DNA from: Cytophagales bacterium
Lineage (GTDB): Bacteria; Bacteroidota; Bacteroidia; Cytophagales; Cyclobacteriaceae
Direction: 5' to 3'
Assembly: GCA_017303805.1 (NCBI GenBank)
Contig: JAFLBQ010000005.1
Span: 358,515 to 422,514, forward strand
DNA length: 64,000 bases
The position numbers and the translations under genes were made by a program. This document shows positions 9,459-26,791 of the stretch, piece by piece. Below the pieces are notes generated by a model that made no database searches, was not told where the DNA came from, and saw nothing but the letters and a program-made list of their open reading frames with translations. Every line of letters starts with the position of its first letter. The first letter of the stretch is position 1.

Positions 9459-10685
9459 ATGGTGCGTGTGCTCGTTGTTTGTATTCTTGGAATGTGGCTA
9501 ACCGCTGTGCATGCACAGGAATTGGTATTTACCACACCGGTACCCTTTAATAATGCTATTAACACGGAAGACGAAGAGTTGGCCCCGGTGCTGGCCCCCG
9601 ATGGTAAGACCATGTATTTTATCCGGGCTTTTCATAGCGGCAATACCGGAGGGAAACTTGCCGGCAGCGATGTGTGGGTAAGCCGGAAGGATGCCATGGG
9701 TTTTTGGATGCCCGCTACCCGCATGGATGCGGCCTGGAATAACAAGCGATCGAATGCAGTGATTGGTGTGAATGCGGATAATACCGTGGTGTACCTGCTT
9801 AACGCCTACAATAATAAAAGTGGAATTTCTTTTTCGAAGCTGTATGGTGGCCAATGGAGTACACCAGAGTTTATTGCGATACCGGGCATTAACAAGGACG
9901 ACTTTGTGGGCTTTTACGTGAGCCCGGCTTTCGATGTGATTTTTATTTCGATGAAAGGGAAGGACAGCTACGGAGAAGAAGACTTGTACATAAGCTTAAA
10001 AGATGCTGCGGGCCACTGGACGGAGCCCCGCAACCTGGGCCCCACCATTAACACATCGGGTTTTGAAATTTCGCCTTTTCTGAGTGCGGATAAATCGAAG
10101 TTATTTTTTACAAGCAACGGGCATGGCGGATATGGAGATGGTGACGTTTTTGTGAGCGAAAGATTGTATGGCACATGGGATATCTGGTCGGTACCACGAA
10201 ATTTAGGAGCCATTGTAAATTCTTCCGGATTTGATTCTTATTTCTCTATCTATGGAGATACCATTGCTTATTATGCGCGTAGTGCAGGCAATAAAAGTGA
10301 TATTTTTAAAACCAAGGTTTCGTATTCAAGTAACGTGTTGCCCGCTGGTTCAAAGTTTTTGAGTGCAGAAGAACTTAATGAAATTTATCCAACAAGATTG
10401 TCCATGCGTTTGGATTTTAGTCAAGGCAATTCAACGTTGACGAACGATCAAAGTGAGGTTATCTGGTTTGTGGCAAATAGAATCTTGAATAAGAAGGATG
10501 TAAATGTTCTTTTATGGGTAAGAGAGGAAGAGGATAACATTATTACTTTAACGCGAACAACTGAAATAATACGAACCATGCGCCTGGTAGGGCTGGATGA
10601 TGAAAGGGTATCGATTTCATCGCATCGTATTAAACCCGATGCAAATAAGCAAGGCGGAGTAATTGAGTTATTACTTTTTAAATGA
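9459..10685 (+). CDS. PD40 beta-propeller protein with OmpA-like C-terminal domain
   Basis: This 408-aa protein has a signal peptide (cleavage near VHAQE) and repeated PD40/WD40-like blades: LAPVLAPDGKTMYF, EISPFLSADKSKLFFTS and GDGDVFVSERL with 'NLG..iNtsgfe' linkers. The last ~110 residues follow the OmpA-like peptidoglycan-binding layout (MRLDFSQGNSTLTND, a helix ending in RTTEIIRTMRLVGLDDERV, then ISSHRIKP), but the usual arginine/aspartate pocket is not clear. It begins 2 bases after the PorP-like stop and is the last gene of the operon. Related PD40-OmpA proteins (for example PorE in Porphyromonas) tether T9SS parts to peptidoglycan, so an envelope-anchoring role for the adhesin-PorP pair is a reasonable inference. 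Its 3' end overlaps the convergent HAD gene by 15 bases. Confidence 0.78.
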   Translation: MVRVLVVCILGMWLTAVHAQELVFTTPVPFNNAINTEDEELAPVLAPDGKTMYFIRAFHSGNTGGKLAGSDVWVSRKDAMGFWMPATRMDAAWNNKRSNAVIGVNADNTVVYLLNAYNNKSGISFSKLYGGQWSTPEFIAIPGINKDDFVGFYVSPAFDVIFISMKGKDSYGEEDLYISLKDAAGHWTEPRNLGPTINTSGFEISPFLSADKSKLFFTSNGHGGYGDGDVFVSERLYGTWDIWSVPRNLGAIVNSSGFDSYFSIYGDTIAYYARSAGNKSDIFKTKVSYSSNVLPAGSKFLSAEELNEIYPTRLSMRLDFSQGNSTLTNDQSEVIWFVANRILNKKDVNVLLWVREEEDNIITLTRTTEIIRTMRLVGLDDERVSISSHRIKPDANKQGGVIELLLFK

Positions 10686-11267
10686 GGTTCTGAAGTATTT
10701 GATAGTGGCCAGGTTTAACATTTCCTTATCCCCAGTGGAATCTCCATACGCTGTTATTGTGTCGAATTTTGAAAGATCGAATTCTTCTTTGATTCTAACC
10801 ACTTTCTCTTTTCCGTAGCAGTTTTTGCCGGAATATCTTCCAGTAACTTTTTTTTGCCGAACCTCCAATTTTGTGGCTATGCAGTGCAATCCCAACAGCT
10901 CACTCCAGGGTTTCACCCAATTTTCTGGAGATGCGGAAACTACAACAACTTTCTCGTGATTGCCTAAATGATATTTTATCCGCTCCAATGCACCAGGCCT
11001 AAGCAACTTAGGAATGTGATTGGTAGCAAAATCAACGCATTTCAGATTGAATAGATCTAAAGGCTCGTTCGCGAAGAAATACGTAAGTAAAATTTGTTTT
11101 GCTGAATTATTTGAGATTATGCGGATTGCATAAAGAGCCAGGATAGGGGATAAAAGAAGGATTCCGGCAACAACTTTTAACCTACCATGATAAAAGAATA
11201 GAAATTCTTTTAAAGAATCACTTTTAGTAAGTGTGCCATCAAAATCAAAGAGTGTTAAGTGATTCAA
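10671..11267 (-). CDS. HAD-superfamily phosphatase (HAD-IB like), probable polyprenyl-phosphoribose phosphatase
   Basis: This 198-aa protein has HAD motif I near the N-terminus (LFDFDGTLTKSD, with DxD nucleophile and acid), motif II serine in VVVSASPENW, and motif III/IV in YGDSTGDKEM. A hydrophobic stretch around residues 32-50 (VVAGILLLSPILALYAIRI) suggests membrane contact, usual for this HAD-IB subgroup. It begins with TTG one base after the stop of the UbiA-type gene and so is almost certainly co-translated. In the D-arabinofuranose donor pathway, the product of the phosphoribosyltransferase must lose its 5-phosphate; HAD proteins fused to or beside such UbiA enzymes are the usual candidates. 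The fold is certain; the substrate is inferred from context. Confidence 0.85.
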   Translation of the reverse strand: MNHLTLFDFDGTLTKSDSLKEFLFFYHGRLKVVAGILLLSPILALYAIRIISNNSAKQILLTYFFANEPLDLFNLKCVDFATNHIPKLLRPGALERIKYHLGNHEKVVVVSASPENWVKPWSELLGLHCIATKLEVRQKKVTGRYSGKNCYGKEKVVRIKEEFDLSKFDTITAYGDSTGDKEMLNLATIKYFRTSFKK

Positions 11268-11268
11268 T

Positions 11269-12135
11269 TTAATTGTAGATAACCAGATAAAACGAAATGA
11301 TCCACAACAAAATAGTGATAAGAATGAATTTATCCTTAAGGAGAATGTTAGTAGGTGACCCGCTATTTAATTCAACCAAAGTAATTTGCAAATACCGAAT
11401 TATTCCGGCAATCACGAATAAGGTAGTGGTAAACAAGTAATTACTATTAAAACGATTCACTACTTCCGCAGAAACCGTGTACATTATATACGACACGATA
11501 ATAACCGCAGCGAATAGGGTAAGGCAAGAGTTGATGAATTCAAGATTGTAACTGGAAGAGGTTTTTCTAATTACCGAATGATTGGTTGATTGTAAGATAA
11601 GGTCATCCCTTCTTTTGGCTAAAACCAAAAAGAGCGAAAGCAGGAGTACCAGAATCGACAGCCAATGAGAAACTTCGACTCCACTTAAAATACCACCGCC
11701 ATGAATTCGGATTAAGAAACCAATTGATACAATAAACAGATCTACGATGGGTATGTTTTTAAGGCCAAAGGAATATAAGATATTAATAACAAGGTAAGAA
11801 GAGACTAAGATAAAGAACGACAAATGGAGAAGATAAGCTATTAAAAGGCCTGCCAGGAGGAAGGCAATAAGAAAGATGATGGCGGAGGATTTACTAATTG
11901 AACCGGATGCCAGGGGTCTATCCTTTTTCAAAGGATGTATTCGATCTGCTTCAATGTCTTTAATGTCGTTAATAATATATACCGCAGACGCGACTAAACT
12001 GAAGGCAATGGTTCCGAGTACTATAAATTGGATACGGTCGTTTTGAAAAAGGGTGCCGGCAAAGAATACGGGAATGAATAAAAAGAGATTCTTAATCCAA
12101 TGCGTAGGCCGAATTAATTTTATTACCGACCGCAT
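11269..12135 (-). CDS. UbiA-family polyprenyl-phosphate phosphoribosyltransferase (decaprenyl-phosphate phosphoribosyltransferase like)
   Basis: The protein is 288 aa from the ATG at 12135; a TTG at 12150 would add five residues and overlap the upstream gene, so ATG is preferred. It begins RPTHWIKNLFLFIPVFFAG and carries the prenyltransferase motif NDIKDIEADRIHPLKKDRP, which matches the DPPR-synthase branch (5-phosphoribosyl-1-pyrophosphate:decaprenyl-phosphate phosphoribosyltransferase) better than quinone UbiA enzymes. A second aspartate-containing motif near residue 160-200 (LAKRRDDLI) follows. About eight to nine membrane helices are apparent. Known reaction: PRPP plus polyprenyl phosphate gives polyprenyl-phosphoryl-5-phosphoribose. 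The HAD phosphatase follows by one base, and DprE1/DprE2 homologues lie 12 kb away, supporting a shared pathway. Confidence 0.87.
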   Translation of the reverse strand: MRSVIKLIRPTHWIKNLFLFIPVFFAGTLFQNDRIQFIVLGTIAFSLVASAVYIINDIKDIEADRIHPLKKDRPLASGSISKSSAIIFLIAFLLAGLLIAYLLHLSFFILVSSYLVINILYSFGLKNIPIVDLFIVSIGFLIRIHGGGILSGVEVSHWLSILVLLLSLFLVLAKRRDDLILQSTNHSVIRKTSSSYNLEFINSCLTLFAAVIIVSYIMYTVSAEVVNRFNSNYLFTTTLFVIAGIIRYLQITLVELNSGSPTNILLKDKFILITILLWIISFYLVIYN

Positions 12136-12143
12136 ATTTTGAA

Positions 12144-12506
12144 TTACCAAATGTTTTCCAAATCTTCTTTACTGTATAAATGGTTGCGGTCTGCAAAAAG
12201 ACTTTTCATCTCCCGGCCTTTTAGTTTTAGAGGGTCTTTGGTGAACAGCCTTGATAAGATGGCAATGGGTAGAAGAAACAAGAAGAAAATAATGCTCAAT
12301 AAAATTTTTGAGTTGATCCAGCCCAGCACATGTGCTAATTTTAGCCAAACCCATTCAATTCCTTTAGCTGCAATTGGTATAAAAATGGTGATGATGCCAA
12401 TCAGAATGGCAGTCTTTGATAACCACTCAATTTTTAAATAAGTAGCAATTACCAACAGACCTGTTACTATAACAAGTATTGTTTTGTATCTGTCTTGATC
12501 CCTCAC
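12144..12506 (-). CDS. SxtJ-like small membrane protein
   Basis: This 120-aa protein begins at GTG 12506 (no early ATG available). It has about three hydrophobic segments (ILVIVTGLLVIATYL, AILIGIITIFIPIA, ILLSIIFFLFLLPIAIL) and a basic-acidic C-terminal tail. Small proteins annotated SxtJ commonly occur next to NodU/CmcH carbamoyltransferases and a DUF5989 protein, exactly as here. The biochemical role is unknown; a membrane partner that positions the carbamoyltransferase is only a guess. It starts 12 bases after the DUF5989 stop and ends 8 bases before the preferred UbiA start. Confidence 0.75.
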   Translation of the reverse strand: MRDQDRYKTILVIVTGLLVIATYLKIEWLSKTAILIGIITIFIPIAAKGIEWVWLKLAHVLGWINSKILLSIIFFLFLLPIAILSRLFTKDPLKLKGREMKSLFADRNHLYSKEDLENIW

Positions 12507-12518
12507 TTTCTTGATTAG

Positions 12519-12668: not shown

Positions 12669-12704
12669 GGCTTATTCTTTAATTTACAGACCTTCAAATA
12701 TAGC

Positions 12705-14570
12705 TTAATCCAAGGTAAATTCTTCTTTCCAATTGTCTTTTTCCTTCCAATCTGGTTGTGCTTTTTTATCAAAAACATAATTACCCACTACCAGGTAATC
12801 CATTTCAGTTCGCATAAAGCAGCGATAGGCGTCTTCAGGCGTACAGATTATTGGTTCTCCTCTCACATTGAAACTTGTATTTACAAGAACGCCATACCCT
12901 GTTAATTTCTTAAACGATTGTATGAGTTGGTAATAGCGTGGATTGGTTTCTTTATGAACGGTTTGAATTCTTGCTGAGAAATCGATGTGCGTTATGGCAG
13001 GCATGTCGGAGCGCAAATGATAAAGCTTCTCCTTTAAAGGCAAGGTGTTGTAATTATCGGGCAAGGGCTTTCTCCTGTTTTTTACAACCGGCTGAACCAG
13101 CAACATGTAAGGAGAAGAAGTAGGATGTTCAAAATACAAGGAGCATTCTTCAGCTAAAACAGATGGCGCAAACGGTCTGAAGGATTCCCTGAATTTAATT
13201 TTAACATTAAGTTTCCGTTGCATTTCTGCACTGCGCGGATCTCCTAAAATAGTGCGTCCACCAAGAGCCCGCGGGCCAAACTCCATCCGTCCTTGCATCC
13301 AGCCCACTACATTATCTTCACCTATTTTTTTTGCAACAAATTCGGTCAGTTGTTGATAATCACTAAAGTGCTCTGCTTTACCATCATACTTTCGAATTAC
13401 TTTTTCGATGTCAATATCTGAGTATTCAGGCCCAAGATAGGAGCCTTTCATTGCATCCATATTGTTTGAGACCTTTCGGTTTTGTCCAAAATAAATGTGA
13501 TAGGCTGCCTGCGCAGCGCCCAGCGCCCCGCCTGCATCGCCCGCGGCAGGTTGAATAAACATATTATCAAATATCTTAGCATTCAACAATTTACCGTTGG
13601 CAACACAATTTAGGGCCACACCTCCAGCCAGACATAAATGTTTCGAACCGGTAAGCCGTTGCGCTTCCTTCCCCATTAAAATCACAGACTCTTCGGTAAT
13701 TTTTTGAATGGCAAGACCAAGGTTGCAATGGTGTGATTCAAGCTCATCTTCGGGTTTGCGCGCTTTAAATCCGAAGAGTTTTTCCCATTTATCCTCATGT
13801 ACCATTCGTAAACCTGTGGAATAATTGAAGTATTCCTGATTTAACCAGACAGAGCCATCGTCTTTAATAGAGACAAGTTTTTCCTTAATGATGGACACGA
13901 AACGATCAACCTCCTCACTTCCGGGTACTCCATAAGGAGCCAACCCCATAAGTTTGTATTCACCTGAATTTACTTTGAATCCCAGGAAGTATGTAAAAGC
14001 TGAATACAATAATCCTAACGAGTGTGGGAACTTCAGCTCTTTCAGGATTTTTACATCCTTACCTGTTCCATGACAAATGGAGGCTGTAGCCCATTCTCCA
14101 ACTCCATCAACAGTTAATATTGCCGATTCTTCGAAGGGCGAAGAATAGTAAGCGCTGGCCGCATGGGAGAGATGGTGCTCGGGGAAAAGAAGTTTGATTT
14201 TTTTCTTATCCAGTTTCTCGTCAATCTTTACAAGTTCCTCCATAATAAGCCTTTTAAGGAACATCTTTTCTCGTAACCAAACTGGTATGGCAGTAATAAA
14301 AGAAGATAAGCCTTTTGGGGCAAAGGCATAATAGGTTTCCAACAAACGCTCAAATTTTAGCAGCGGCTTATCGTAGAATGCAATCGCGTCAAGCTGGCTT
14401 AGCGATGTACCTGCATACTCCAAACAAAATTTTACTGCTTGGGTAGGAAAACCAGGATCGTGTTTCTTTCTGGTGAAACGCTCCTCCTGAGCGGCCGCAA
14501 TGATTTCGCCATCTTCAATAATTGCTGCCGCGGAGTCGTGATAGAATGCTGAAATGCCAAGAATTTTCAT
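12705..14570 (-). CDS. NodU/CmcH-family carbamoyltransferase
   Basis: This 621-aa protein is of normal family length. The N-terminal kinase-like (TsaD-related) domain starts KILGISAFYHDSAAAI with QEERFTRKKHD, and has the metal/nucleotide motif HHLSHAASAYY and TVDGVGEWAT. The C-terminal YrdC-like domain carries GRMEFGPRALGGRTILGDP and NTSFNVRGEPI. Family members move a carbamoyl group from carbamoyl phosphate via carbamoyl-AMP to a hydroxyl of a sugar or antibiotic (for example NodU on Nod factors). Here it leads an operon that continues with DUF5989, SxtJ, UbiA-like and HAD genes, so the acceptor is probably a sugar in the surface glycan made nearby. That acceptor is an inference. Confidence 0.93.
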   Translation of the reverse strand: MKILGISAFYHDSAAAIIEDGEIIAAAQEERFTRKKHDPGFPTQAVKFCLEYAGTSLSQLDAIAFYDKPLLKFERLLETYYAFAPKGLSSFITAIPVWLREKMFLKRLIMEELVKIDEKLDKKKIKLLFPEHHLSHAASAYYSSPFEESAILTVDGVGEWATASICHGTGKDVKILKELKFPHSLGLLYSAFTYFLGFKVNSGEYKLMGLAPYGVPGSEEVDRFVSIIKEKLVSIKDDGSVWLNQEYFNYSTGLRMVHEDKWEKLFGFKARKPEDELESHHCNLGLAIQKITEESVILMGKEAQRLTGSKHLCLAGGVALNCVANGKLLNAKIFDNMFIQPAAGDAGGALGAAQAAYHIYFGQNRKVSNNMDAMKGSYLGPEYSDIDIEKVIRKYDGKAEHFSDYQQLTEFVAKKIGEDNVVGWMQGRMEFGPRALGGRTILGDPRSAEMQRKLNVKIKFRESFRPFAPSVLAEECSLYFEHPTSSPYMLLVQPVVKNRRKPLPDNYNTLPLKEKLYHLRSDMPAITHIDFSARIQTVHKETNPRYYQLIQSFKKLTGYGVLVNTSFNVRGEPIICTPEDAYRCFMRTEMDYLVVGNYVFDKKAQPDWKEKDNWKEEFTLD

Positions 14571-14682
14571 TGATGTATAAAAGGGGTATAGGGGTAGATT
14601 TTAGCCAATATTTTTGATTGAAAGCGGTTGGGTTTTAGGTGTATCGATAAGCATAGTGGCCCTTTGGGCAGCTCTTAAACCC

Positions 14683-14833: not shown

Positions 14834-14861
14834 TAGGTAGACTAATGCTAAATTGGGTAAT

Positions 14862-17075
14862 ATGGATATCCTGTTTCTATTAAAGGTTATTTGGAGAAAG
14901 AAGTGGTTGTGGATTTTAACACCAATTGGTGCTGCAGGGCTGGCTTTCCTTTTCACCCTTAACCAGGCTCAAAAGTACAGAGCTTCAACTCAAATGTCGA
15001 CTGGTTTTACAATGAACGACCAGGTTCACTTGCGGGAGGAGTGGTTTAACCCAAGAGATGCGGATATAAAATTCAATAACCTGCTGAGTTCAATGAATGC
15101 AGGCGCACCAACCAATTTTGTTCAGTACAGGTTGTTGTTACATGAATTAGATGAGCGAGAGGTGCCTTTTCATCAACTAGACCCTGAGAAGCTGCAAGCT
15201 GATTATGAGGAAATTAGGTATGTAAGAGGTATGGTTAAAGCCATGTTGGATAGCCTGACTCCTTTATCTACATCCTCGCCTGGCTACCCAATAATCAACA
15301 AATTTTTGATTGCCTATAACTATGACTATCTGGTTATTAAGTCTAGCCTAAATGTTTATCGCATTCCTAATACCGATTTTATACAGGTGGATTATGTGTC
15401 GGATAACCCGCAGTTATCTGCACTGGCAGCAAACGCATTTTGCGAAGAATTTATCCGATTCAGTAAAACGCTAACTACGGAACGAGCGGGCGAGTCAGTC
15501 GATTTTCTTAACAACCTTGTAATACAGAAGAAAAGAGAGTTAGATGAAAAGTTGGAAACTCAGCGAGTATTTAAAACCAGCAATAGTCTTTTCAGTGTTG
15601 AGAAGGAAGGGGAGAATAAACTTGTTCAACTATCGGATTTTGAAAGGCAACGTGACGAGATCAGAAGTTCGATGCAGCGGATAGAACTCACAAAAGTAAA
15701 TTTGAACAAACAACTGAATTCATTAGCGTCCAACTCTAACAGTGTTACGGATAATCAAAAGATTATAGAACTACGGAATACAATTAATAGCCTTAACGAC
15801 CGGTACATAGTGGGTGGCCAACGAGACAATGCGTTAAAGGACTCAATAAGTCTTCTTCGGGAGCAATTGAGAATTCAAACGGCAGGTATTAGCAACACCC
15901 CTACAACACCTGCTTTATCAAAAGCTGAAATTCAAAATAGCCTGAATGAGTTGGACGTTGAGTATCAGGTAGCCAGAACAAATTTAATTACCATTGAAGC
16001 AAAGATCACCAGTTTGCAGTACAGTTTCTCAGGCTATGCATCTAAGGAGGCAAAGCTTTCGGCCATTCAAAAAGAGGTGGACCTGGCTTCGCAAGAGTAT
16101 TTGGAAGCAGTAACCAAATTCAATGAAGCGAAAAACAGATTGTTGGCTTCAAATACATTGCGTCAAATTTCAGCGGCATTCCCACCGCCCAATCCATTAT
16201 CCAGCAAGCGTATTATTATTGTTGGGTTGGCAGGCTTTAGTAGTTTTTCAATTTGTATTTTTATTATTGCCTTATTCGAATTTTTGGATCAAACACTTCG
16301 TTCGGTAGATAAATTTAATTCATTGGTTAATTTACCCTTGATTGGTTCAATCATCCGACTCAATTTAAGTAATTTTAATATCCCGCAAATTTTTAGTCAA
16401 TCTGGAAACGAAGACGGTGAATTATTTAAATCAATTTTGCGTAAACTAAGACATGAGATAGTTTCTCTGAATTCTCCGCTACTCTTAGTAACCAGTCTTC
16501 GCAAAGGCGAAGGAAAAACTTTTACCATCATTTCGTTATCCTATATTTTAAGTTTGGTTAACAAACGGGTATTGATCGTTGATACCAACTTCAGAAGTAA
16601 TGTGCTATCGCAGGTTTTACCGAAAGGTTCAAAAGTTAAATCAATAGAAGACCGCCAGTTGGTAGCAGGACTTCTAACCTCTTCGAAGCAAGGAAAAGTA
16701 GATGTTGAAACTGAAGATAAAGAAATGGCCTACGAGTTGATTACACCAACTATTTACAAGAATGTGTTTGTGGTAACAAATGCCGGTGGCGGGATTGCTT
16801 CCCCGGCTGAGATTTTAAGTGGTAGGAATTTCAAGAACCTGATTGACGGATTCAAAGCAAATTTTGATTACATAATTTTAGAGGGTGGTGCTTTGAATGA
16901 TTATGCTGACACGAAAGAACTTGTTCAATATGTGGATAAAGTGGTAACGATTTTTTCAGCCCAATCGGTTATTTCTCAACAGGATCGCGAGTCGATAAAG
17001 TACATAAAATCATTGGGCCACAAATTTGGAGGTTGTATTCTTAATAGAATTGATCCAAAAGATTACAAACTTTAG
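14862..17075 (+). CDS. Wzz-type polysaccharide co-polymerase with BY-kinase-like domain
   Basis: ATG 14862 is preferred over an in-frame TTG at 14853. The 737-aa protein has an N-terminal membrane helix (WIWRKK-like start, then LWILTPIGAAGLAFLF), a long periplasmic part with coiled coil (about residues 210-430), and a second helix (IIIVGLAGFSSFSICIFIIAL). A cytoplasmic P-loop domain follows, with Walker A SLRKGEGKTFT near residue 545. This is the layout of GumC/CpsCD exopolysaccharide chain-length regulators. The kinase signature is degraded: Walker A' reads VLIVDTNFRSN, the Walker B position reads IILEGGALND rather than hhhDxPP, and there is no tyrosine-rich tail. It probably still regulates polymer export as the first gene of the operon, but tyrosine autophosphorylation is doubtful. 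Confidence 0.85.
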   Translation: MDILFLLKVIWRKKWLWILTPIGAAGLAFLFTLNQAQKYRASTQMSTGFTMNDQVHLREEWFNPRDADIKFNNLLSSMNAGAPTNFVQYRLLLHELDEREVPFHQLDPEKLQADYEEIRYVRGMVKAMLDSLTPLSTSSPGYPIINKFLIAYNYDYLVIKSSLNVYRIPNTDFIQVDYVSDNPQLSALAANAFCEEFIRFSKTLTTERAGESVDFLNNLVIQKKRELDEKLETQRVFKTSNSLFSVEKEGENKLVQLSDFERQRDEIRSSMQRIELTKVNLNKQLNSLASNSNSVTDNQKIIELRNTINSLNDRYIVGGQRDNALKDSISLLREQLRIQTAGISNTPTTPALSKAEIQNSLNELDVEYQVARTNLITIEAKITSLQYSFSGYASKEAKLSAIQKEVDLASQEYLEAVTKFNEAKNRLLASNTLRQISAAFPPPNPLSSKRIIIVGLAGFSSFSICIFIIALFEFLDQTLRSVDKFNSLVNLPLIGSIIRLNLSNFNIPQIFSQSGNEDGELFKSILRKLRHEIVSLNSPLLLVTSLRKGEGKTFTIISLSYILSLVNKRVLIVDTNFRSNVLSQVLPKGSKVKSIEDRQLVAGLLTSSKQGKVDVETEDKEMAYELITPTIYKNVFVVTNAGGGIASPAEILSGRNFKNLIDGFKANFDYIILEGGALNDYADTKELVQYVDKVVTIFSAQSVISQQDRESIKYIKSLGHKFGGCILNRIDPKDYKL

Positions 17076-18489: not shown

Positions 18490-18594
18490 GTGAGCAAGAA
18501 GTTTACAGAAAAGGATTTAATTCGGGTAGCGGTAATTGTTTTTGTAGTTTCCGTGTACCTCTTCATGTTACTCAAAATTTTGGTACTAAAGTGA
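18490..18594 (+). CDS. 34-aa single-helix membrane protein
   Basis: A frame runs from GTG (18490) to TGA (18594), encoding MSKKFTEKDLIRVAVIV followed by a hydrophobic helix and LKILVLK at the end: short basic/acidic head, one membrane helix, basic tail. Its stop overlaps the GTG start of the polymerase gene by 4 bases (GTGA), a pattern expected for translational coupling. No family was recognised. It lies between flippase and polymerase genes, so it might assist or translationally couple the polymerase. It could be fortuitous, but the overlap and clean helix argue for a real gene. Confidence 0.5.
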   Translation: MSKKFTEKDLIRVAVIVFVVSVYLFMLLKILVLK

Positions 18595-20015
18595 AGGCGC
18601 GGAGTAACACGTTTGTACTGGTGTGTGTGGCGGCCCTTGCTTCCATAATGGCTTCCTATTTTATTGCAGCTTCCAACATCGTGGTGGGTGGATTAATAAT
18701 AATTGGTGTTATTGGTCTTTTTGTGGTTGGGGCAATGGTGTTTGACTTTCGCATTGGAGTCTATATCCTTTTTTTGATGGGCTCTTTCATGTTTTACGTT
18801 TCGCGACTTCTTACATCTCAAATCCCTTTCGGTGTTTTTTACGATGCACTGGTGGTTATAACCTTTGTTTGTATTTTTCTTAATGTAAAGCGTGTAAAAG
18901 ACTGGTCGGGTTTCAACAATATTTTCACGTTGTATTTCGTGATCATTACAGCCTATCAATTACTTCAGATGTTTAATCCAAATGCTGTAGGGCTTACGGG
19001 TTGGCTGGTTTCAATGCGAAATAATACCTCGTTACTAACCTATATTATCTTTTTTCAACTTTTTGTAACGATAAAGGACATTAAATACTTTACCATGCTG
19101 TGGTTGGGTGTTGGTTTAGCAGTTGCATTTTATGGAATTTATCAGGAAACATTTGGGCTAACTGATTTTGAATGGCGCTGGATTTATGAAGCACCCGGTC
19201 GGTTTGAACTTTACTATCAATGGGGAAGCATGAGAAAGTTCTCGTTTCTTTCCGATCCTTCGAGCTATGGGTTGTTTCTTGCTTTTGGTGGCCTAGCCTT
19301 CATCACCTTAATTTTCGGACCCTATCGAACCCGCTGGAAGATTTTTTGTGGTGTTGCCGCAATGATCTGCTTTATCGCTATGGCCAATTCCGGCACCCGT
19401 ACAGCTACTGCCATGGTAGCTATTGGCCTCTTGCTCCTGGTTTTGCTGAATATAAATAGCCAAAAGGTAATCTTGTTTGCAATGGCCGTGGTATTTGCAG
19501 GCGGGATAGTTTTTTTTGGCCCATTTTATAGTGGTACTGTAATTCGGTTGCGCTCTACTTTTACTCCATCCGAAGATGCTTCTATGGGTGTTCGTGATTA
19601 TAAGCGACTCCGGTTTCAGGAGTACATCCGCAGCAATCCAATAGGCGGTGGGCCTATGACTACCGGAACCAGCGGTGTCATATATTCACCAGGGCACCCC
19701 TTAGCAGGAGGATGGGACCCCGATAGCGGCTATCTGGCCACAGGCCTGGAGTTGGGATGGGTAGGATTGCTTATATTTGTTTCTTTCTTTGCGGCAGTAA
19801 TGATAAAGGGCATAAACAATCACTTTTTAATTGTTGATCCATTACTTCGAAATTTAAATTTGGTGTACACCATTCCTTTTTTTGCATTAACCGTGGGGCA
19901 TTTCACGCAACATGCCATGTTCTCTAAACCTTCTAACCTGCTGGTTATAGCCATTTATGCGTTGCTAATTCGCTTACCTCAATTCGATACATTAAAATCA
20001 GACACAATTATTTAA
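18591..20015 (+). CDS. O-antigen polymerase/ligase-like membrane protein (Wzy family)
   Basis: This 474-aa protein has about 12 membrane helices and a large periplasmic loop between helices late in the chain (about residues 330-385, with FTPSEDASMGVRDYKR and PDSGYLATGLELGWVG). SDPSSYG followed by SGTRTATA is typical of the O-antigen ligase/polymerase (Wzy_C) superfamily. Such proteins polymerise lipid-linked repeat units at the periplasmic face. It starts with GTG overlapping the 34-aa ORF and is followed 2 bases later by the TolC-like gene. Between a flippase and an export protein, polymerase is more likely than ligase. Confidence 0.8.
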   Translation: MKARSNTFVLVCVAALASIMASYFIAASNIVVGGLIIIGVIGLFVVGAMVFDFRIGVYILFLMGSFMFYVSRLLTSQIPFGVFYDALVVITFVCIFLNVKRVKDWSGFNNIFTLYFVIITAYQLLQMFNPNAVGLTGWLVSMRNNTSLLTYIIFFQLFVTIKDIKYFTMLWLGVGLAVAFYGIYQETFGLTDFEWRWIYEAPGRFELYYQWGSMRKFSFLSDPSSYGLFLAFGGLAFITLIFGPYRTRWKIFCGVAAMICFIAMANSGTRTATAMVAIGLLLLVLLNINSQKVILFAMAVVFAGGIVFFGPFYSGTVIRLRSTFTPSEDASMGVRDYKRLRFQEYIRSNPIGGGPMTTGTSGVIYSPGHPLAGGWDPDSGYLATGLELGWVGLLIFVSFFAAVMIKGINNHFLIVDPLLRNLNLVYTIPFFALTVGHFTQHAMFSKPSNLLVIAIYALLIRLPQFDTLKSDTII

Positions 20016-20017: not shown

Positions 20018-20716
20018 ATGAAAACCATAAAACTTTTTCCACTATTCGTTGTACTTGGATGCCTTTCAGCACGAGCTCAATCAATTGACTACAACAAAAT
20101 TATTTTACCCGACCGGGTTCAAAGTGCAGACTTTGGAGAGAAGCTTGTACAGCTAGCCTGGAGAAACCACCCTACCAATGAGATCTACAGGCACGATGTA
20201 ACCATTGCGCAATATCAGGTAAATCGCTCCGCAGCGGATTGGCTCAATATGATAACGGTGCAAGGGAACCTAAATGAGTTCAACATCAAGGAGCAAAGCA
20301 ATAACGTACCCGTTTTCTTACCTCGTTATAATTTTGGCTTGATTGTGCCGCTTGGCATTTTTGTAAAAAACCCCAACGAAACGAAACAAAACAAACAAAA
20401 ATTGGCCATTGCCCAGGAATCTGTGAATGCCCAAAAACTTGAGGTAAGAAGGGTTGTGCTAAAGGCCTACAACGATTACCAGGTTGCAGAGAAGATATTT
20501 AAAATTCAATCACAGCAATTTTCGGATAGTGAAAGCAATTTAAAATTGATAGAGCAACGTTTCAAAAGAGGTGAAACTAATTTTGAGGTTTATACCGCAA
20601 GCCAGGCTGAACTAAACAGGGCATCCATAGCCATGCTGCAGGCCGACCGCGATTTTAAAAACGCGAAGCTTGATCTTGAGCAATTGATTGGGGTAAGGCT
20701 GGAAGATGTGATGTGA
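20018..20716 (+). CDS. Short TolC-like outer-membrane efflux family protein
   Basis: This 232-aa protein has a signal peptide (cleavage near ARAQ). It has one TolC-type helical pair with a strand pair between (about residues 40-220), including 'EQRFKRGETNFEVYTASQAELNRA' split over two helices and a C-terminal LDLEQLIGVRLEDV. Normal TolC proteins have two such repeats and about 420-480 aa, so this is half length with no sign of a frameshift. It starts 2 bases after the polymerase stop. It may form the outer-membrane or periplasmic part of the exporter by oligomerising with doubled stoichiometry. No separate Wza-like gene is visible in the operon. Confidence 0.7.
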   Translation: MKTIKLFPLFVVLGCLSARAQSIDYNKIILPDRVQSADFGEKLVQLAWRNHPTNEIYRHDVTIAQYQVNRSAADWLNMITVQGNLNEFNIKEQSNNVPVFLPRYNFGLIVPLGIFVKNPNETKQNKQKLAIAQESVNAQKLEVRRVVLKAYNDYQVAEKIFKIQSQQFSDSESNLKLIEQRFKRGETNFEVYTASQAELNRASIAMLQADRDFKNAKLDLEQLIGVRLEDVM

Positions 20717-20848
20717 TAATGATTTTCTGGTGATCTGTTTTTCTCAAAATTTAAAATGCGGATCCGTTATCGCAATGGCTGTGCGAAGTAAACAACAATT
20801 ATAATTGGAGAAAGTTGATTTGATTATGTTCGAAATCTGCTTATACGA

Positions 20849-21922
20849 ATGAGTTCTGCTGGTAGTGGAAGTGCAAAAATTCATAGACGAGGTTGGATTG
20901 ATTACGCAAGGGGCATTGTTATTATCTATGTAGTTTACAGGCATGCGTTAACCGGATTGTTAGGAGCCGGTGTTAACATTAAAAACGCGATTTATCTGGT
21001 TCAGGAATCCAGTATGCCTGTTTTTTTTATTGTGTCCGGAATTTTCATCCGGTCGAGCGCATTGAAACGGGGACTAGATACCTTTGTAAGGTTTAAGTTT
21101 GAGTCGTTAATGTACCCGTACTTTGTGTGGGCCACCATTCACCTCTCAATACAGATTTTTTTTAGCCACTACTCAAATTATGCGAAAGGTGTTGAATACT
21201 ACGGCTATCTTTTCACCTTCCCCAGGGCGATAGATCAATTTTGGTATTTATACGCACTGTTTGCTACAATGATTGTTTTTGCAACTTTGAATTTTAAACT
21301 ACTAAAGTTTAATGTACCGTTAAATGTGGTTGTTGCGATAGGTCTTTATGTAAGTTCATATTTTATTAAGACTGATTATTTCTCTCTACATGACATAGCT
21401 TTCTATTATCCATTTTTAGTGTTTGGATTCTTGATAGCCGATGCATTAATGCCTGTGGATAGTACTTTTTTTAAGGGCAAGTGGCTGCTATATACTCTTC
21501 CAATTTTTATCGTATTACAAATTTATTGGCGGTGGCAATATCCTGATACCAACAGACTGAATGAATTGGACTTTATTGGGTTTGTTGCTTTTGTGCCGAT
21601 TACAATCATAGGCGCGCTATTGATTTTTATTTTCTCCTATCACCTGGATGAAAGAAATTGGCTAAAGCCCTTGCGCTTTATTGGAAGCCATTCTTTGTAT
21701 ATCTACATCATGCACCTGATCTTCACCAGTGGTATCAGAATGGTTTTCCTCAAACTCTATCCGCAAGCACCCCCTCTACTTATGCTGCTTGTTATAATGG
21801 CGGGCGGTATTTTTATACCCATTGTGTTATATAAAACGTTAATGCAACTTGGATTCAAGGCCTTGTTTGAGCCTCCGCTGGCTGTAAAGAAACTAATCTT
21901 TTGGAAACATAAACCTCTATAG
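20849..21922 (+). CDS. Acyltransferase family 3 membrane protein (OafA-like)
   Basis: This 357-aa protein begins with the acyltransferase-3 signature (RGWIDYARGIVIIYVVYRHA, where the conserved histidine follows the YR) and has about 10 membrane helices, ending with LYIYIMHLIF typical of the family. These enzymes O-acylate exported glycans or membrane sugars using a cytoplasmic acyl donor. It follows the TolC-like gene by 132 bases, in which no gene or clear terminator is seen, and probably decorates the polysaccharide of this operon. Its 3' end overlaps the convergent GT-C gene by 68 bases. Confidence 0.85.
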   Translation: MSSAGSGSAKIHRRGWIDYARGIVIIYVVYRHALTGLLGAGVNIKNAIYLVQESSMPVFFIVSGIFIRSSALKRGLDTFVRFKFESLMYPYFVWATIHLSIQIFFSHYSNYAKGVEYYGYLFTFPRAIDQFWYLYALFATMIVFATLNFKLLKFNVPLNVVVAIGLYVSSYFIKTDYFSLHDIAFYYPFLVFGFLIADALMPVDSTFFKGKWLLYTLPIFIVLQIYWRWQYPDTNRLNELDFIGFVAFVPITIIGALLIFIFSYHLDERNWLKPLRFIGSHSLYIYIMHLIFTSGIRMVFLKLYPQAPPLLMLLVIMAGGIFIPIVLYKTLMQLGFKALFEPPLAVKKLIFWKHKPL

Positions 21923-23477
21923 TTCCCGGATAAACAATCCGGGGTGCTTCAAAGGAATCCACCAACGTATAATGATCCTTTAATTTCGCGCGGACAGAGA
22001 ATGGATAAAAGTTGTTAAGCAGTGGCAGATGTTCAAAAAGAACCACATCATAGTGCTGTGCTTCTATTTGAATTAAAAACTGGTTAAGCTCGCGTTCGAA
22101 CATTCCCACCCCAAGATGGAACCAGAGTGGGCCTTTGGCTAATTTAAAATTTGCCTCAATAGCCAGCGGGGTAAGCTCAGACATATTCAGTACTACCGGC
22201 TCTTTTGATGTGCGAGCCTGTTGAATTAATTGGATAGTACGCTCCATGCCACTGACAGTACTTGCGGGCATTCGGATGTTCTTAAATGCAGGTAAAGAAG
22301 ATTTTTGCCAGTTGGATAAATCTGCGTAGAAATTGCACTCCGCGGGTTGTAGAATGTAGGTATTTATTGAAACCACATCTTTATCGGTTGGCCTGAATAA
22401 TGTCTTGGCTAAAACCTTATCGGCATACTTCCAGTATTTTTCAGACCACCACAGGCTTACAAGTACAAATAAAATAGAAAAGGTAAGCCTGGAGTTATAC
22501 CAATTGAAATTTTGAAGCTGGAGAAGGATAAATGCGCAAGCAAAGGCATGGAAAAAGAAATTATTATCCTTCGGCACATAACTGGTTACCTGATAAATCA
22601 TGGCCTGAACCAAAATACCCAGAATGAGTAATGTAAACAAAAGACCTGCGCGTGTAATGGTTTTGTTTCGCCATTGTACGTAAAGTAATCCTACAATGGA
22701 AATAAAGTAGAATTTCTCCCAGCGCGATTCTTCCATGTTGATTCTGATCAAATCCTGAAGTGACACACGCGCGTAGTGGGGGGCTTGCCCATAGTTAAAC
22801 CAGTATCCAAAATCATATGGCAGAAAGGGTAGAATAAAGATTAAAAACGAGGCAGTAACAGTAGCACTGAATATAAGGGCAGGTTTTAGCGCGCGCGACT
22901 GGAAACTATAGATGACTACCAGAATTAAACCAATCAGCAACCCTAACCCGCCTCCATCTTGTTTGGTAAAAAAAGCTACCGTAAAGAAGATTGCTGAGGC
23001 TATTAAATATAACCATGAAAATCTTTGTTGTGCCTGTTTGAAAAAGTGAAAGAGAAAACCCAGTGCTACCAGTTGAAAGATAATAACGGTGTGATTGTAT
23101 TGTGGCCAGTAAAGTCCCAGAATAAATGTGAGTGAAAAAATAACAATACTGAGAACCCGAGTGTAAAAACCAGCGCCATTATTTACCAGTATCCACCGAA
23201 ACGCCACACCAGAAACAATATTCATGAACGCTTGCGCTTTGGCTAATGTGAAAAGTGATGGGCCAAACAGCTTAAAAAAGAGGGCGGGTATAAGCCAGGA
23301 GCATACCCCCATAGGAATACCAAAATCCTTATACGGCAATTCGCCCAGGGAGAGCCGGTAAGCGCCCTCCCATAGCATGTAGAGATTGATCTGATAGGAG
23401 AGTTCGAAGAACAATGGAAATAGTGCACACCCGAATATCAGTAGTAGTTCAAGGCCAACGATCGCCCACTTTTTCAT
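21855..23477 (-). CDS. GT-C superfamily membrane glycosyltransferase
   Basis: This 540-aa protein has an N-terminal membrane helix and then a first periplasmic loop with an acidic segment (LWEGAYRLSLGELPYKDFG) like ArnT/PMT-type GT-C enzymes. About ten further helices and a C-terminal soluble domain of ~190 residues follow. GT-C enzymes use polyprenyl-phosphate sugars as donors on the periplasmic face. The start ATG overlaps the stop of the upstream GT-C gene by one base (TAATG), so the two are coupled. Given the DprE1/DprE2 genes just beyond, a polyprenyl-phosphoryl-arabinose donor is a plausible but unproven assignment. Confidence 0.7.
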   Translation of the reverse strand: MKKWAIVGLELLLIFGCALFPLFFELSYQINLYMLWEGAYRLSLGELPYKDFGIPMGVCSWLIPALFFKLFGPSLFTLAKAQAFMNIVSGVAFRWILVNNGAGFYTRVLSIVIFSLTFILGLYWPQYNHTVIIFQLVALGFLFHFFKQAQQRFSWLYLIASAIFFTVAFFTKQDGGGLGLLIGLILVVIYSFQSRALKPALIFSATVTASFLIFILPFLPYDFGYWFNYGQAPHYARVSLQDLIRINMEESRWEKFYFISIVGLLYVQWRNKTITRAGLLFTLLILGILVQAMIYQVTSYVPKDNNFFFHAFACAFILLQLQNFNWYNSRLTFSILFVLVSLWWSEKYWKYADKVLAKTLFRPTDKDVVSINTYILQPAECNFYADLSNWQKSSLPAFKNIRMPASTVSGMERTIQLIQQARTSKEPVVLNMSELTPLAIEANFKLAKGPLWFHLGVGMFERELNQFLIQIEAQHYDVVLFEHLPLLNNFYPFSVRAKLKDHYTLVDSFEAPRIVYPGTIEVYVSKRLVSLQPAEAQTRP

Positions 23478-24676
23478 TAGCGTAGAATGTGGATAGTGTA
23501 ACTCAATAAATTAAGTGCAATGGCGTAGGCAACAAATGATTTAAATAACCATTTAGGAATAGCGGCATAGCTAGCACCAATCAACACCAATAATGCCGGG
23601 AAAAAATCCAGAGCGAACCGTTGAGTATTAACTTGCATCCAGCCATTATTATGATAGAATAGTATGCTCACAACAATTAATGAGATAGTGGCCCAGAATG
23701 CAATCTTGAATTTTAGTTCCTGCCGGGCCTTCCAAGCAAAAATAACAAAAGGCGATGCTGCCAGAATGGATGTGCCGTATTGATCCATACCTGTTACCTG
23801 TAAATTCATGCTGCCTGAAAAAAATATGTTATGGCCTTTTAGTAGCAGATGATAGAAGTTGTAAAGAAAGTATTTTGAGCTAAAAAGTCCGTATTGATTT
23901 ATTCTTTCCTGAACAGGTGCTGCATAGATCAGGTACAAATAGCCCGTGTCAAAAATATTGTGAAACCGCAGGTAGTTCAGAATAAAGTAGGGGACTACGC
24001 AAAGGGCAGCAACCACCAGCACGATAAGAATATTTTTAAGGGCAGTCTTTTTATCGGGTTGCACTACATACAGAAAATAGAAAATGAGGATGGCATAAAA
24101 AATAGTCATTTGCCGGGTTAAGAATGCCAGCGCCCAAAGTACTCCAAGCAAGAGTGGTCTTTTCTTGCTCAGAACTTCAATTAATAGAAGCAACAATAAG
24201 CAGGTACAAACTACATGGGCAAATCCATTAATGTAATCGCTGGTTAAAACTACCCACCAATACCCACTTCCAAAAAAAAAGCCGAGAAACACCCAAAGCT
24301 TACCTTCTGAGTTACCCATTACGTGGGTAAGTAGCCTATAAAGCAAGAACATATTGACACAGGAGATCAACAGGCTAATTAATATGGTGTTAATAGAGGT
24401 TCCAAAAACACCTACCAACGGGGTAAGCACCACGGCCGGAAAGGGGGGGAAGCTCACGTAGTACTTCCCCTCAAATACAGAGGCATCCCAGAAGTAATTT
24501 TCGATAGGTAGGTTACCCGAAAGAAAGGCTTTTGCCTGAAATACAGCAAGATTAGAGTCGTATGCGTTTTTAGTAATAACCGGAATATGAAGCACCAGGT
24601 AAAGCGAAAGAATCAACAGCCAATGCTTCCAGGTTAGATTATGAAAAGAAAAAATTTCGTTAATAAATTTCTTCAT
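23477..24676 (-). CDS. GT-C superfamily membrane glycosyltransferase (ArnT/PMT-like)
   Basis: This 399-aa protein has about ten membrane helices. The first loop carries YDSNLAVFQAKAFLSGNLP and YYVSFPPFPAVVLTPLVG, a layout seen in dolichyl/polyprenyl-phosphate sugar transferases, with an aspartate in the position used for catalysis (YDSN). The C-terminus is short and ends in a helix, unlike its partner. It is the first gene of a two-gene minus-strand unit and is separated by only 54 bases from the divergent DprE1 gene, so shared regulation is likely. Donor and acceptor are unknown. Confidence 0.7.
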   Translation of the reverse strand: MKKFINEIFSFHNLTWKHWLLILSLYLVLHIPVITKNAYDSNLAVFQAKAFLSGNLPIENYFWDASVFEGKYYVSFPPFPAVVLTPLVGVFGTSINTILISLLISCVNMFLLYRLLTHVMGNSEGKLWVFLGFFFGSGYWWVVLTSDYINGFAHVVCTCLLLLLLIEVLSKKRPLLLGVLWALAFLTRQMTIFYAILIFYFLYVVQPDKKTALKNILIVLVVAALCVVPYFILNYLRFHNIFDTGYLYLIYAAPVQERINQYGLFSSKYFLYNFYHLLLKGHNIFFSGSMNLQVTGMDQYGTSILAASPFVIFAWKARQELKFKIAFWATISLIVVSILFYHNNGWMQVNTQRFALDFFPALLVLIGASYAAIPKWLFKSFVAYAIALNLLSYTIHILR

Positions 24677-24730
24677 AAACGTTGAATTAAAGCGTAACTA
24701 TCGGAGTTAAAGGTATGAGATTTTAATAGA

Positions 24731-26056
24731 ATGGCGGCTAATTTTATTACAAATTGGAATAATTACCCACAGGAGAAATCTCAATTCTCTACCGCTGTGT
24801 TTGGTCAGGATTTTGAAACGGCCTTAGCTCGCCAGCCTTCATTTATTGTTCGCGGTAATGGTCGTTGCTATGGCGATGCATCGCTTGGTGCCTCCGTTGT
24901 AAGTTCGCTTAAATTCAATAGAGTTTTAAGCTTCGATGAAGTGGCCGGCATACTTACCTGCCAAAGTGGGCTGATGCTTTCCAATATTCTTGAACTTTCG
25001 ATGCCGAAAGGTTGGTTTTTGCCGGTAACGCCCGGCACTCGGTTTATTACCGTGGGGGGGGCCGTTGCTTCGGATGTGCACGGAAAGAACCATCATAAAG
25101 ACGGATCATTTTCACAACATGTAATCAACATAAAAATTCTTACCCCAACGGGTTCGATTGTTTCGTGCAGTCCAACTGAAAACAGTGATTTTTTTTGGTT
25201 CACCTGTGGCGGGATGGGACTTACTGGTATTATTCTGGAAGTTACGTTTAGATTAAAAAAAATTGAAACCGGTTTCATTAAGCAGGTTCAGATCAAAGCA
25301 AAAGATCTAAACGAAGTGCTGGAGTTGTTTGAACAATATAGTAACTACACCTATTCCGTTGCATGGATTGATTGTCTTAAGACCGGTGCTGATTTTGGAC
25401 GAAGTATTTTGATGGTTGGTGAACATGCAACCATACATGAGTTACCTAATGCTGCCCGCCTGCTCCCTAAGAAACCTATTGTCCTGTCGGTGCCTTTTAA
25501 CTTTCCTTCTTTTGTGTTAAACGGATTTTCTGTAAAAGCCTTCAATGCGGTTTACTATGGCAAAAACTTCAAACGCGAAATCCATTCCATAGCTTCTTAC
25601 GAAAAATTCTTTTACCCATTGGATGCCATATTGCATTGGAACAGAATTTATGGAAGCCGTGGATTTGTACAATACCAATTCGTAATTCCCAAGCAAGTGG
25701 GCAAGGCCGGCATTCGCGATATCTTAACACGGATAAGTGCGAAGGGATGGGGCTCTTTCCTGGCGGTTCTAAAACTCTTTGGTGTTCAACAGGGACCAAT
25801 CTCTTTTAATATGGAAGGCTACACGCTGGCATTAGACATTCCGATTAACAGCAAACTTTTTTCCTTTCTGGACGAACTTGATAAGATGGTTAAAGAGTAC
25901 GGTGGGCGCATCTATTTAACAAAGGATGCCCGGATGAAAGCCGAAATTTTTCATAGTACATACCCAAATGCAGCAACCTTTACTACATTTCTAAATAAAG
26001 TCGATCCTGAAAAGAAGCTGGTTTCCTCGCTTTCCAGGCGCCTTCAAATCAAATAA
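24731..26056 (+). CDS. dprE1: DprE1-like decaprenylphosphoryl-beta-D-ribose 2'-oxidase
   Basis: This 441-aa FAD-linked oxidase (VAO/PCMH fold) is close in length and motifs to mycobacterial DprE1. FAD-binding segments are RGNGRCYGD (41-49) and PGTRFITVGGAVASDVHGKN (101-120, with the FAD-proximal His117). The substrate part has HWNRIYGSRGFVQYQFVIP (about 302-320) and GGRIYLTKDAR with Lys398, equivalent to the catalytic-site Lys418 of M. tuberculosis. Known reaction: oxidation of polyprenyl-phosphoryl-ribose at C2' to the keto form. The residue equivalent to the benzothiazinone-reactive Cys387 is Ala367 (GYTLALDI against GWNICVDF). The DprE2 homologue follows after 3 bases, completing the epimerase pair. 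Confidence 0.9.
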   Translation: MAANFITNWNNYPQEKSQFSTAVFGQDFETALARQPSFIVRGNGRCYGDASLGASVVSSLKFNRVLSFDEVAGILTCQSGLMLSNILELSMPKGWFLPVTPGTRFITVGGAVASDVHGKNHHKDGSFSQHVINIKILTPTGSIVSCSPTENSDFFWFTCGGMGLTGIILEVTFRLKKIETGFIKQVQIKAKDLNEVLELFEQYSNYTYSVAWIDCLKTGADFGRSILMVGEHATIHELPNAARLLPKKPIVLSVPFNFPSFVLNGFSVKAFNAVYYGKNFKREIHSIASYEKFFYPLDAILHWNRIYGSRGFVQYQFVIPKQVGKAGIRDILTRISAKGWGSFLAVLKLFGVQQGPISFNMEGYTLALDIPINSKLFSFLDELDKMVKEYGGRIYLTKDARMKAEIFHSTYPNAATFTTFLNKVDPEKKLVSSLSRRLQIK

Positions 26057-26059
26057 ACT

Positions 26060-26791
26060 ATGACTACCGTTTTGATACTGGGTGCTACATCGGAAGTGGC
26101 GCTTGCGTTAGCCGATCAATTAGCCGCTAAATCTTTCAATTTGATTTTAGCTGCCCGACATGCAGAAAGACTTAATCCGGTTAAAGCCGATCTCACTATC
26201 CGATTTGGCGTAACGGTTACCGTAGCAGAGTTTGATGCCGCCCAGGTTACTACCCACGCTGATTTTTATGCGCAGTTGAGTCCAAAACCCGATGCAGCAA
26301 TTTGTGTGTTCGGTTTTTTAGGCGACCATGAAAAAGCGATTCAGAACTGGGAAGAGTGCGCCACCATATTAACTTCGAACTTTGTGGGTGCAGTTTCTAT
26401 ACTGAATATTGTAGCCAACGATTTTGAAAATCGTAAGGCCGGAGTACTGGTAGGCGTAAGCTCAGTAGCGGGCGAACGCGGCCGCCAAAGCAATTATTTT
26501 TATGGCAGCGCCAAGGCAGGCTTTACAGCCTACCTGTCGGGGTTAAGAAATCGATTATTTAAAAGTTCGGTGCATGTGGTAACAGTAAAGCCTGGGTTTA
26601 TCAGAACCAGGATGATTGCCGGAATACCCACACCCGGGTTACTTACTGCCAGTGCAGACCAGGTTGCTCGTAAAATCATTGGAGCAATGCAGGCTAAGCG
26701 AAATGTAATTTACATAGTGCCGGCCTGGCGATGGATCATGCTGGTGATTCGATCCATACCGGAGTCAATTTTTAAGAGGCTCCGGCTGTAG
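26060..26791 (+). CDS. dprE2: DprE2-like decaprenylphosphoryl-2-keto-beta-D-erythro-pentose reductase (SDR)
   Basis: This 243-aa short-chain dehydrogenase has the nucleotide-binding LILGATSEVALALA at the N-terminus, matching the GATSxI variant of DprE2 rather than the classical TGxxxGxG. The active site is Ser135 in GVSSVAGERGRQSN and Tyr148/Lys152 in YGSAK, followed by VKPGFIRTRM. The run SSVAGER-RxSN-YGSxKAG is the DprE2 hallmark. It reduces the 2'-keto intermediate to polyprenyl-phosphoryl-D-arabinofuranose with NAD(P)H. It begins 3 bases after dprE1. Its end faces the convergent SGNH gene with 10 bases between. Confidence 0.88.
   Translation: MTTVLILGATSEVALALADQLAAKSFNLILAARHAERLNPVKADLTIRFGVTVTVAEFDAAQVTTHADFYAQLSPKPDAAICVFGFLGDHEKAIQNWEECATILTSNFVGAVSILNIVANDFENRKAGVLVGVSSVAGERGRQSNYFYGSAKAGFTAYLSGLRNRLFKSSVHVVTVKPGFIRTRMIAGIPTPGLLTASADQVARKIIGAMQAKRNVIYIVPAWRWIMLVIRSIPESIFKRLRL

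Follow-up and report, generated by a model that had tools for sequence, protein, structure and literature searches.

A predicted D-arabinofuranose donor pathway in a Cytophagales surface-glycan locus, with a candidate transferase and a giant type IX secretion partner

D-Arabinofuranose is a rare sugar, best known from mycobacterial cell walls, where the pathway to its donor is a drug target. We analyzed a 64,000-nucleotide stretch of contig JAFLBQ010000005.1 from a Cytophagales bacterium (the window), in which a surface-glycan locus carries four genes that very likely provide the donor polyprenyl-phosphoryl-D-arabinofuranose (D-Araf), together with a candidate transferase of the GT-C fold (GTC-A) and the gene of a giant protein exported by the type IX secretion system (T9SS). 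Below, G labels denote genomes and L labels denote loci of relatives.

The pathway belongs to a known kind of system. According to the available part of PMC11127046, three-component pentofuranose systems are widespread, and DprE1/DprE2 homologues are named where Araf is present. In the Citrobacter youngae O1/O2 system described there (a PPPRS-PRP protein, a MATE flippase and a GT-C transferase of family GT136), as is predicted for the window, a polyprenyl-phosphate phosphoribosyltransferase (PPPRS) and a HAD phosphatase are the means of making the polyprenyl-phosphate pentofuranose, and genes for a GT-C transferase and a MATE-type flippase lie in the glycan locus; DprE1/DprE2 as an auxiliary epimerase for Araf are likewise common to the window and the three-component systems. 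The window differs from Citrobacter in that its HAD phosphatase is a separate gene, in that the candidate transferase GTC-A has no family model and in that a giant T9SS protein accompanies GTC-A. The available main text of PMC11127046 holds no word beginning 'Bacteroid-', and in that of a review of marine lipopolysaccharides (PMC3210612) 'araf' occurs 0 times and 'arabin' 5 times, the displayed occurrences being 4-amino-arabinose. Our literature searches (listings and the starts of abstracts) returned no description of the GTC-A family, of the breadth of the pathway in the phylum or of the giant T9SS partner, which we regard as the new elements here.

With the mycobacterial pathway (Rv3806c, Rv3807c, DprE1, DprE2, Rv3789 and Emb/Aft) the window shares steps one, three and four by homology; it has a phosphatase of another superfamily, no Rv3789-type gene (for the GtrA-type flippase, PF04138 had no match at E 0.001 among 21 candidates scored in the whole genome), and a candidate transferase that matches Emb/Aft in fold only, with no match to Emb or Aft chains in a search of PDB sequences. 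The first-pass annotation had likened the four steps to those that yield the donor of mycobacterial arabinans, a comparison that needs correcting for the phosphatase, which is a HAD like that of the Citrobacter PPPRS-PRP protein; the mycobacterial enzyme is unrelated to HADs, as stated in the part of PMC11127046 available. Alphaproteobacterial operons (on Rhizobium and Azospirillum plasmids) keep UbiA, DprE1-like and SDR genes together, as does the window; unlike it, they include a GtrA gene within the run, and their UbiA proteins, of 488 or 513 residues, have an extra N-terminal part. A HAD-UbiA fusion was considered for two of these proteins and is not claimed, the HAD profile having no match to the N-terminal part. 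Arabinosylation of the Azorhizobium Nod factor is comparable to these operons. Araf glycosylation of the Pseudomonas type IV pilin, again as given in the available part of PMC11127046, combines a PPPRS-based lipid donor with a protein acceptor, there the pilin; the protein candidate in the window is the giant T9SS cargo.

The four pathway enzymes

The genes lie in two pairs, as follows.

10671..11267, minus strand: HAD-IB phosphatase, proposed 5'-phosphatase of polyprenyl-phosphoryl-5-phosphoribose (198 residues; TIGR01490 99.9 bits; PF12710 E 2e-34)
11269..12150, minus strand: UbiA-type PPPRS (NF008977 233 bits; Rv3806c structure 8j8j E 6e-41; PRPP-site residues kept)
24731..26056, plus strand: DprE1, polyprenyl-phosphoryl-ribose 2'-oxidase (441 residues; NF053785 412 bits, cut-off 500; 4aut E 2e-86)
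26060..26791, plus strand: DprE2, keto-sugar reductase (243 residues; NF053786 201 bits, cut-off 250; 21gq_C E 1e-34)

All four open reading frames that the first-pass annotation reported are intact and positioned as it had them, except that the first start codon of UbiA is at 12150, the previously listed 12135 being an in-frame ATG. A single base separates UbiA from HAD, which lies downstream, and about 12.6 kb separates the UbiA/HAD pair from the DprE1/DprE2 pair, so that the four genes do not form one operon in this genome. By computation, the enzymes are confirmed as UbiA PPPRS, HAD phosphatase, DprE1 and DprE2.

For UbiA, the decaprenyl-phosphate phosphoribosyltransferase model NF008977 gave 233.2 bits in the profile search (cut-off 234), and a second scan, made with the frame's neighbours, listed the protein as above that cut-off; the best other prenyltransferase model reached 66.9 bits. 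Rv3806c is the best solved relative, and of its 12 residues named for the site of phosphoribosyl pyrophosphate (PRPP) in the available part of PMC10994848, 10 are identical in the window protein (R22, K28, Y70, N73, D77, K87, R90, Y138, K143 and K208; R22, Y70 and Y157 were read by eye from the alignment), with Asn in place of Q135 and Phe in place of Y157. The HAD score lies just above the TIGR01490 cut-off of 98.3. DprE1 and DprE2, whose genes are adjacent, show homology over nearly their full length; the nearest solved relative of DprE2 is mycobacterial DprE2 (21gq_C). The motifs HGKNHH and QYQF and the lysine of YxxKD are kept in DprE1, and YxxxK is kept in DprE2, which bears out the active-site conservation claimed for the pair by the first-pass annotation. 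The next-best matches in this genome are weak (23.5 bits for UbiA, 42.2 bits for DprE1). An unspecific SDR model, NF005489, scores DprE2 higher than its own model does (325 bits, cut-off 267). Because none of the 395 phylum genomes discussed below reaches the NF053785 cut-off, that cut-off may have been set on Actinobacteria.

Co-occurrence and linkage across genomes

In a sample of 118 genomes of the order, full-length DprE1 (a match above 350 bits) was found in 9 and PPPRS in 16, the 16 including all 9 with DprE1. The distance between PPPRS and DprE1 is below 300 bp in 6/9 of these genomes and 12 to 22 kb in this genome, G019 and G078; in G064, of the same genus, UbiA, DprE1, DprE2 and HAD form a single run, and a DprE2 homologue adjoins DprE1 in 9/9. 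For 13 of the 16 genomes with PPPRS, the stretch fetched contains a HAD of this family, which is missing from the stretches of G049, G003 and G104; the HAD of G003 shares a stretch with GTC-A on another contig. Across 395 genomes of the phylum, PPPRS was matched in 138 and DprE1 in 81, with both in 80 of the 81 (the exception is G269); absences are soft, with up to five candidates per genome scored for PPPRS and four for DprE1. The first-pass annotation had placed such gene sets in a few Gram-negatives, a restriction that these counts do not bear out. A span of 10 kb takes in all four genes in 55 of 80 named relatives, the other 25 including Kiritimatiellota and Chloroflexota loci with no nearby UbiA match and loci ended by contig ends; DprE2 was matched in 71 and not in 9, some of which are cut loci. 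The linkage and co-occurrence, together with the conserved active-site residues, argue that UbiA, HAD, DprE1 and DprE2 serve one pathway, as first proposed, and because the four enzymes are identified and travel together across genomes, the donor polyprenyl-phosphoryl-D-Araf is very likely made in this organism.

A PPPRS match without a DprE1 match occurs in 58/395 phylum genomes, which possibly make ribofuranose or another epimer. Many of the weaker PPPRS frames are about 475 to 520 residues long, a length that suggests an extra fused domain.

The window's UbiA groups with those of G019 and G078 (support 100/100) and its DprE1 with G019 and a metagenome-assembled genome (MAG) of the Cyclobacteriaceae, while same-genus G064 holds another version (52-53% identity) that groups with a Flammeovirgaceae MAG. 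These groupings suggest that lineages have exchanged the module, which is common among surface-glycan loci; the window shows a local variant of the gene arrangement. A phage record (MT837543.1, positions 4874-5746; Bacteriophage sp., human faeces) carries a PPPRS homologue with 44.7% identity to the window UbiA, and pathway genes are present on two records of a plasmid collection, CP139022.1 (Flammeovirgaceae bacterium SG7u.111) and CP012861.1 (L149, Persicobacter sp. JZB09).

A candidate transferase and its giant companion

Two membrane proteins encoded between the gene pairs are candidates for transferring the sugar, and a third gene, that of the giant protein, accompanies the first of them.

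21855..23477, minus strand: GTC-A, unnamed membrane protein of predicted GT-C fold, candidate arabinofuranosyl (pentofuranosyl) transferase
23477..24676, minus strand: GTC-B, PMT_2-type membrane protein, second candidate transferase (PF13231 29.5 bits, cut-off 26.1)
33172..40212, minus strand: giant T9SS-exported protein with an alpha/beta hydrolase part, fn3, a PA14-like region and a C-terminal sorting domain (by domain search)

No Pfam or NCBIfam model matched the GTC-A family. In its predicted structural model, 46 of the 50 matching structures listed are GT-C glycosyltransferases, the top ones protein O-mannosyltransferases and further ones EmbB, EmbC, AftA, AftB, AftD and ArnT; among PDB sequences no Emb or Aft chain was matched, and two sequence matches, to a sulfotransferase (E 0.015) and an ATP-synthase subunit (E 0.27), were disregarded. 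A GTC-A profile did not match the one PMT_2 protein of L062 against which it was run, and a viral fold library returned one match (E 4.5e-5), an uncharacterised archaeal-virus protein. An averaged Kyte-Doolittle profile, since superseded by the model, had given about 11 membrane helices, with a 36-residue loop after the first that holds invariant E37 and D51. GTC-A co-occurs with PPPRS, and because it is linked to the pathway genes and has a predicted GT-C fold we regard it as the best candidate transferase for the lipid-linked pentofuranose. In Chryseobacterium, Epilithonimonas and relatives, the four-gene operon is part of one conserved gene run, and no GTC-A match lies within 10 kb (the loci are L101, L105-L114, L116, L118-L120, L122, L124-L126, L129, L132-L135 and L138-L145). 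In G065 and G103 (L063, L066, L196, L198), PPPRS, HAD, GTC-A and the giant protein are found without full-length DprE1, a natural contrast for donor specificity.

The giant protein has 2346 residues, and its sorting domain matches PF18962 at 44 bits (cut-off 27); the PA14 match is below cut-off in the window protein and above it in the homologues of G049 and G003. Homologues share the fetched stretch with pathway genes in G019, G064, G078, G049, G003, L068, L069, L072, L079, L086 and L091, and lie about 30 kb from them in G398 and G124. We surveyed genomes with a profile, A6, of the hydrolase and Ig part, built from giants near D-Araf genes. At E 1e-20 it has matches in 46/118 genomes of the order and 28/46 of a second set, mostly short esterase-like frames below 130 bits. 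A cut made after the matches were seen therefore defines the long form (a single match above 200 bits), to which we added G103, where a single frame of 2900 residues holds a match split into 140 and 93 bits. In the order the long form occurs in 10/118 genomes, namely all 9 with GTC-A plus G051, so that among genomes without GTC-A it is found in 1/109, or 2/109 if G117 is counted (we left it out; its matches are split, 115+80 and 98+97 bits, and its frames have 672 and 931 residues); this survey is partly circular, 5 of the 9 GTC-A genomes having contributed to the profile. In the second set, whose 12 GTC-A genomes contributed nothing to the profile, the long form (here above 270 bits) is present in 12/12 with GTC-A, in 1/31 without it (G495, a soft absence, with up to three GTC-A candidates scored per genome) and in 0/3 of uncertain GTC-A status, locus L136 being excluded. 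Association statistics that treat genomes as independent come out too strong for that reason; Fisher tests (G117 not counted) give p 1e-12 for the order and 8e-10 for the second set, and 4e-5 with the order collapsed to 22 families.

The tight co-occurrence favours a direct relation between GTC-A and the giant protein. The first-pass suggestion of T9SS-exported proteins as one of two possible acceptors gains indirect support, since a giant T9SS cargo tracks the candidate transferase. All 10 of the 10 aligned giants keep the serine of a G-x-S-x-G motif, a G-H pair and an Asp (S85, H169 and D137 of alignment A6), which we assign as the putative catalytic triad; with hydrolase motifs so conserved, the protein may act on an arabinosylated glycan instead of bearing the sugar. 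Two further large proteins of the window share the hydrolase region or the middle region with the giant, one at 47611-52881 and the other listed here.

28001..32134, minus strand: large protein with a PKD domain and a region shared with the giant (PF22352 above cut-off; Esterase 20.7 bits, below the cut-off of 22)

The glycan locus, the acceptor and wider meaning

The genes around and between the two enzyme pairs are those of a surface-glycan locus.

12144..12506, minus strand: SxtJ-like small protein (PF19588 E 2e-9)
12705..14570, minus strand: carbamoyltransferase, possible glycan decoration (PF02543, PF16861)
14853..17075, plus strand: Wzz/Wzc-like chain-length protein (PF02706 above cut-off; ATPase-type domains below theirs)
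17113..18462, plus strand: Wzx/MATE-type flippase that may export the lipid-linked sugar or a repeat unit (PF13440, PF01943 and PF01554 above cut-off)
18591..20015, plus strand: Wzy_C polymerase/ligase-type protein (PF04932 40 bits, cut-off 31.7)
20018..20716, plus strand: short outer-membrane efflux-type (OEP) protein (PF02321 E 2e-26)
20849..21922, plus strand: acyltransferase 3 (PF01757 E 9e-30)
26802..27881, minus strand: protein with homologues encoded close to the module in G019, G078, L068 and L069

Carbamoyltransferases 85-91% identical to that of the window lie near UbiA/HAD in G019 and G078, and the same glycan may be carbamoylated. Of 29 loci with GTC-A, 11 have the OEP protein. The protein at 26802..27881, which we take to be SGNH-like, matched no family of Pfam or NCBIfam. 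At the start of the window a large repeat protein (68-8446) is followed by a PorP/SprF-type gene (8443-9456), a combination typical of T9SS surface proteins.

From these parts we propose, with a probability of roughly 0.78, that the PPPRS/DprE pathway makes polyprenyl-phosphoryl-D-Araf and that GTC-A transfers the pentofuranose to the local polymer or to the giant protein. UbiA would couple PRPP with polyprenyl phosphate to give a phosphoribosyl lipid, HAD would remove the 5'-phosphate, and DprE1 and DprE2 would invert C2 of the ribose to yield D-Araf; these first four steps (synthesis, dephosphorylation and epimerisation) are predicted from homology to proven enzymes. The lipid-linked sugar would then be flipped to the periplasm, where, given that no GtrA-type flippase was found in the genome, the Wzx/MATE protein at 17113 or some unknown protein would have to do so; the former (Polysacc_synt/MatE) may serve the repeat unit and not the lipid-linked sugar. 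Outside the membrane GTC-A would transfer the pentofuranose, with either the polymer made by the Wzx/Wzy-type locus or the giant T9SS protein encoded nearby as acceptor. We infer the chemistry, donor specificity, flipping, transfer and acceptor.

Two explanations would remove the donor itself. It is improbable that another epimer or a keto sugar results from DprE1 and DprE2, so that the final product is not D-Araf: weighing against the proposed donor are the scores of both proteins below their curated cut-offs and residue differences such as Ala at DprE1 position 367, near the active site, where the mycobacterial enzyme has a Cys (the one bound by benzothiazinones), but the 4aut match extends over residues 38-440 with the motifs kept, DprE2 is a constant neighbour of DprE1 in the order and was matched in most relatives, and DprE1/DprE2 homologues are named where a known structure has Araf (available part of PMC11127046). 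To the idea that UbiA is a quinone- or haem-type prenyltransferase in a coincidental neighbourhood we give almost no credence. The protein does belong to the UbiA superfamily (PF01040), and the phylogenetic check that the first-pass annotation proposed gave no placement: in trees with a quinone/haem outgroup the outgroup branches were saturated (about 10 changes per column), and the paralogues, too diverged, did not form one clade on one side of a branch; constraining the PPPRS rows together was not rejected (approximately unbiased test, p 0.449). The profile scores, in contrast, favour PPPRS (233.2 bits, where no quinone or haem UbiA model exceeds 39.9), the PRPP site is kept, other UbiA proteins of this genome have at most 35.5 bits with the PPPRS profile or went unreported, and UbiA PPPRS is present in all nine DprE1 genomes of the order.

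The remaining alternatives accept the donor and differ in where the sugar goes. The sugar may form a side branch on the Wzx/Wzy polysaccharide of the locus, the giant protein being exported to bind or trim the glycan, as an adhesin or a hydrolase, to which we give slightly less than even odds: flippase, Wzy_C, Wzc-like and acyltransferase genes are in the same locus, some or all of them accompany GTC-A in G398, G003, G049, L085, G064 and L068, the putative triad is invariant as an acting hydrolase needs, and side-chain transfer by a GT-C enzyme is an established mechanism (PMC11127046, in the part available). Against this, Chitinophaga-type loci hold GTC-A and the four genes, but there the flippase and Wzy profiles that fit the window locus had no match within 10 kb, and no GT2- or GT4-type family was matched by any of the 14 proteins encoded from 10671 to 27881, a GT2 protein being found at 41573-42541 in a window scan that mostly ended at 46199. 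Alternatively, GTC-A may arabinosylate the giant protein, by periplasmic O-glycosylation before export, with the polysaccharide genes as mere neighbours: the association with the long form (9/9 and 12/12 genomes with GTC-A, 1/109, or 2 with G117, and 1/31 without) holds also in the Chitinophaga genomes that have no adjacent Wzx/Wzy match, and the best structural matches of GTC-A are protein O-mannosyltransferases; but the fold reveals no acceptor (EmbB, AftA and ArnT match as well), the hydrolase motifs look functional, no glycosylation site was found, though none was searched for, and the giant gene of Chitinophaga lies beyond 10 kb of GTC-A, so that we consider protein arabinosylation rather unlikely. 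Unlikely, too, is its extension to Cytophagales- and Chitinophagales-type systems in general, where GTC-A would put lipid-borne D-Araf (or, in bacteria lacking DprE1, ribofuranose) on a giant T9SS hydrolase/fn3/PA14 protein before export.

With DprE1 in 81 of 395 phylum genomes, 80 of them with PPPRS, D-Araf is probably present in many bacteria other than mycobacteria, in glycans that our literature searches did not find described. Gut Bacteroidetes can degrade D-arabinan, according to the available part of PMC10115798, and the Bacteroidota pathway may, speculatively, offer a non-mycobacterial source of that polymer. The GTC-A family is a specific, testable candidate transferase for which no family model exists, and the giant protein found alongside it is a concrete candidate for an acceptor or partner; if the giant is indeed the acceptor, these bacteria would have a dedicated surface system coupling protein arabinosylation to type IX secretion.

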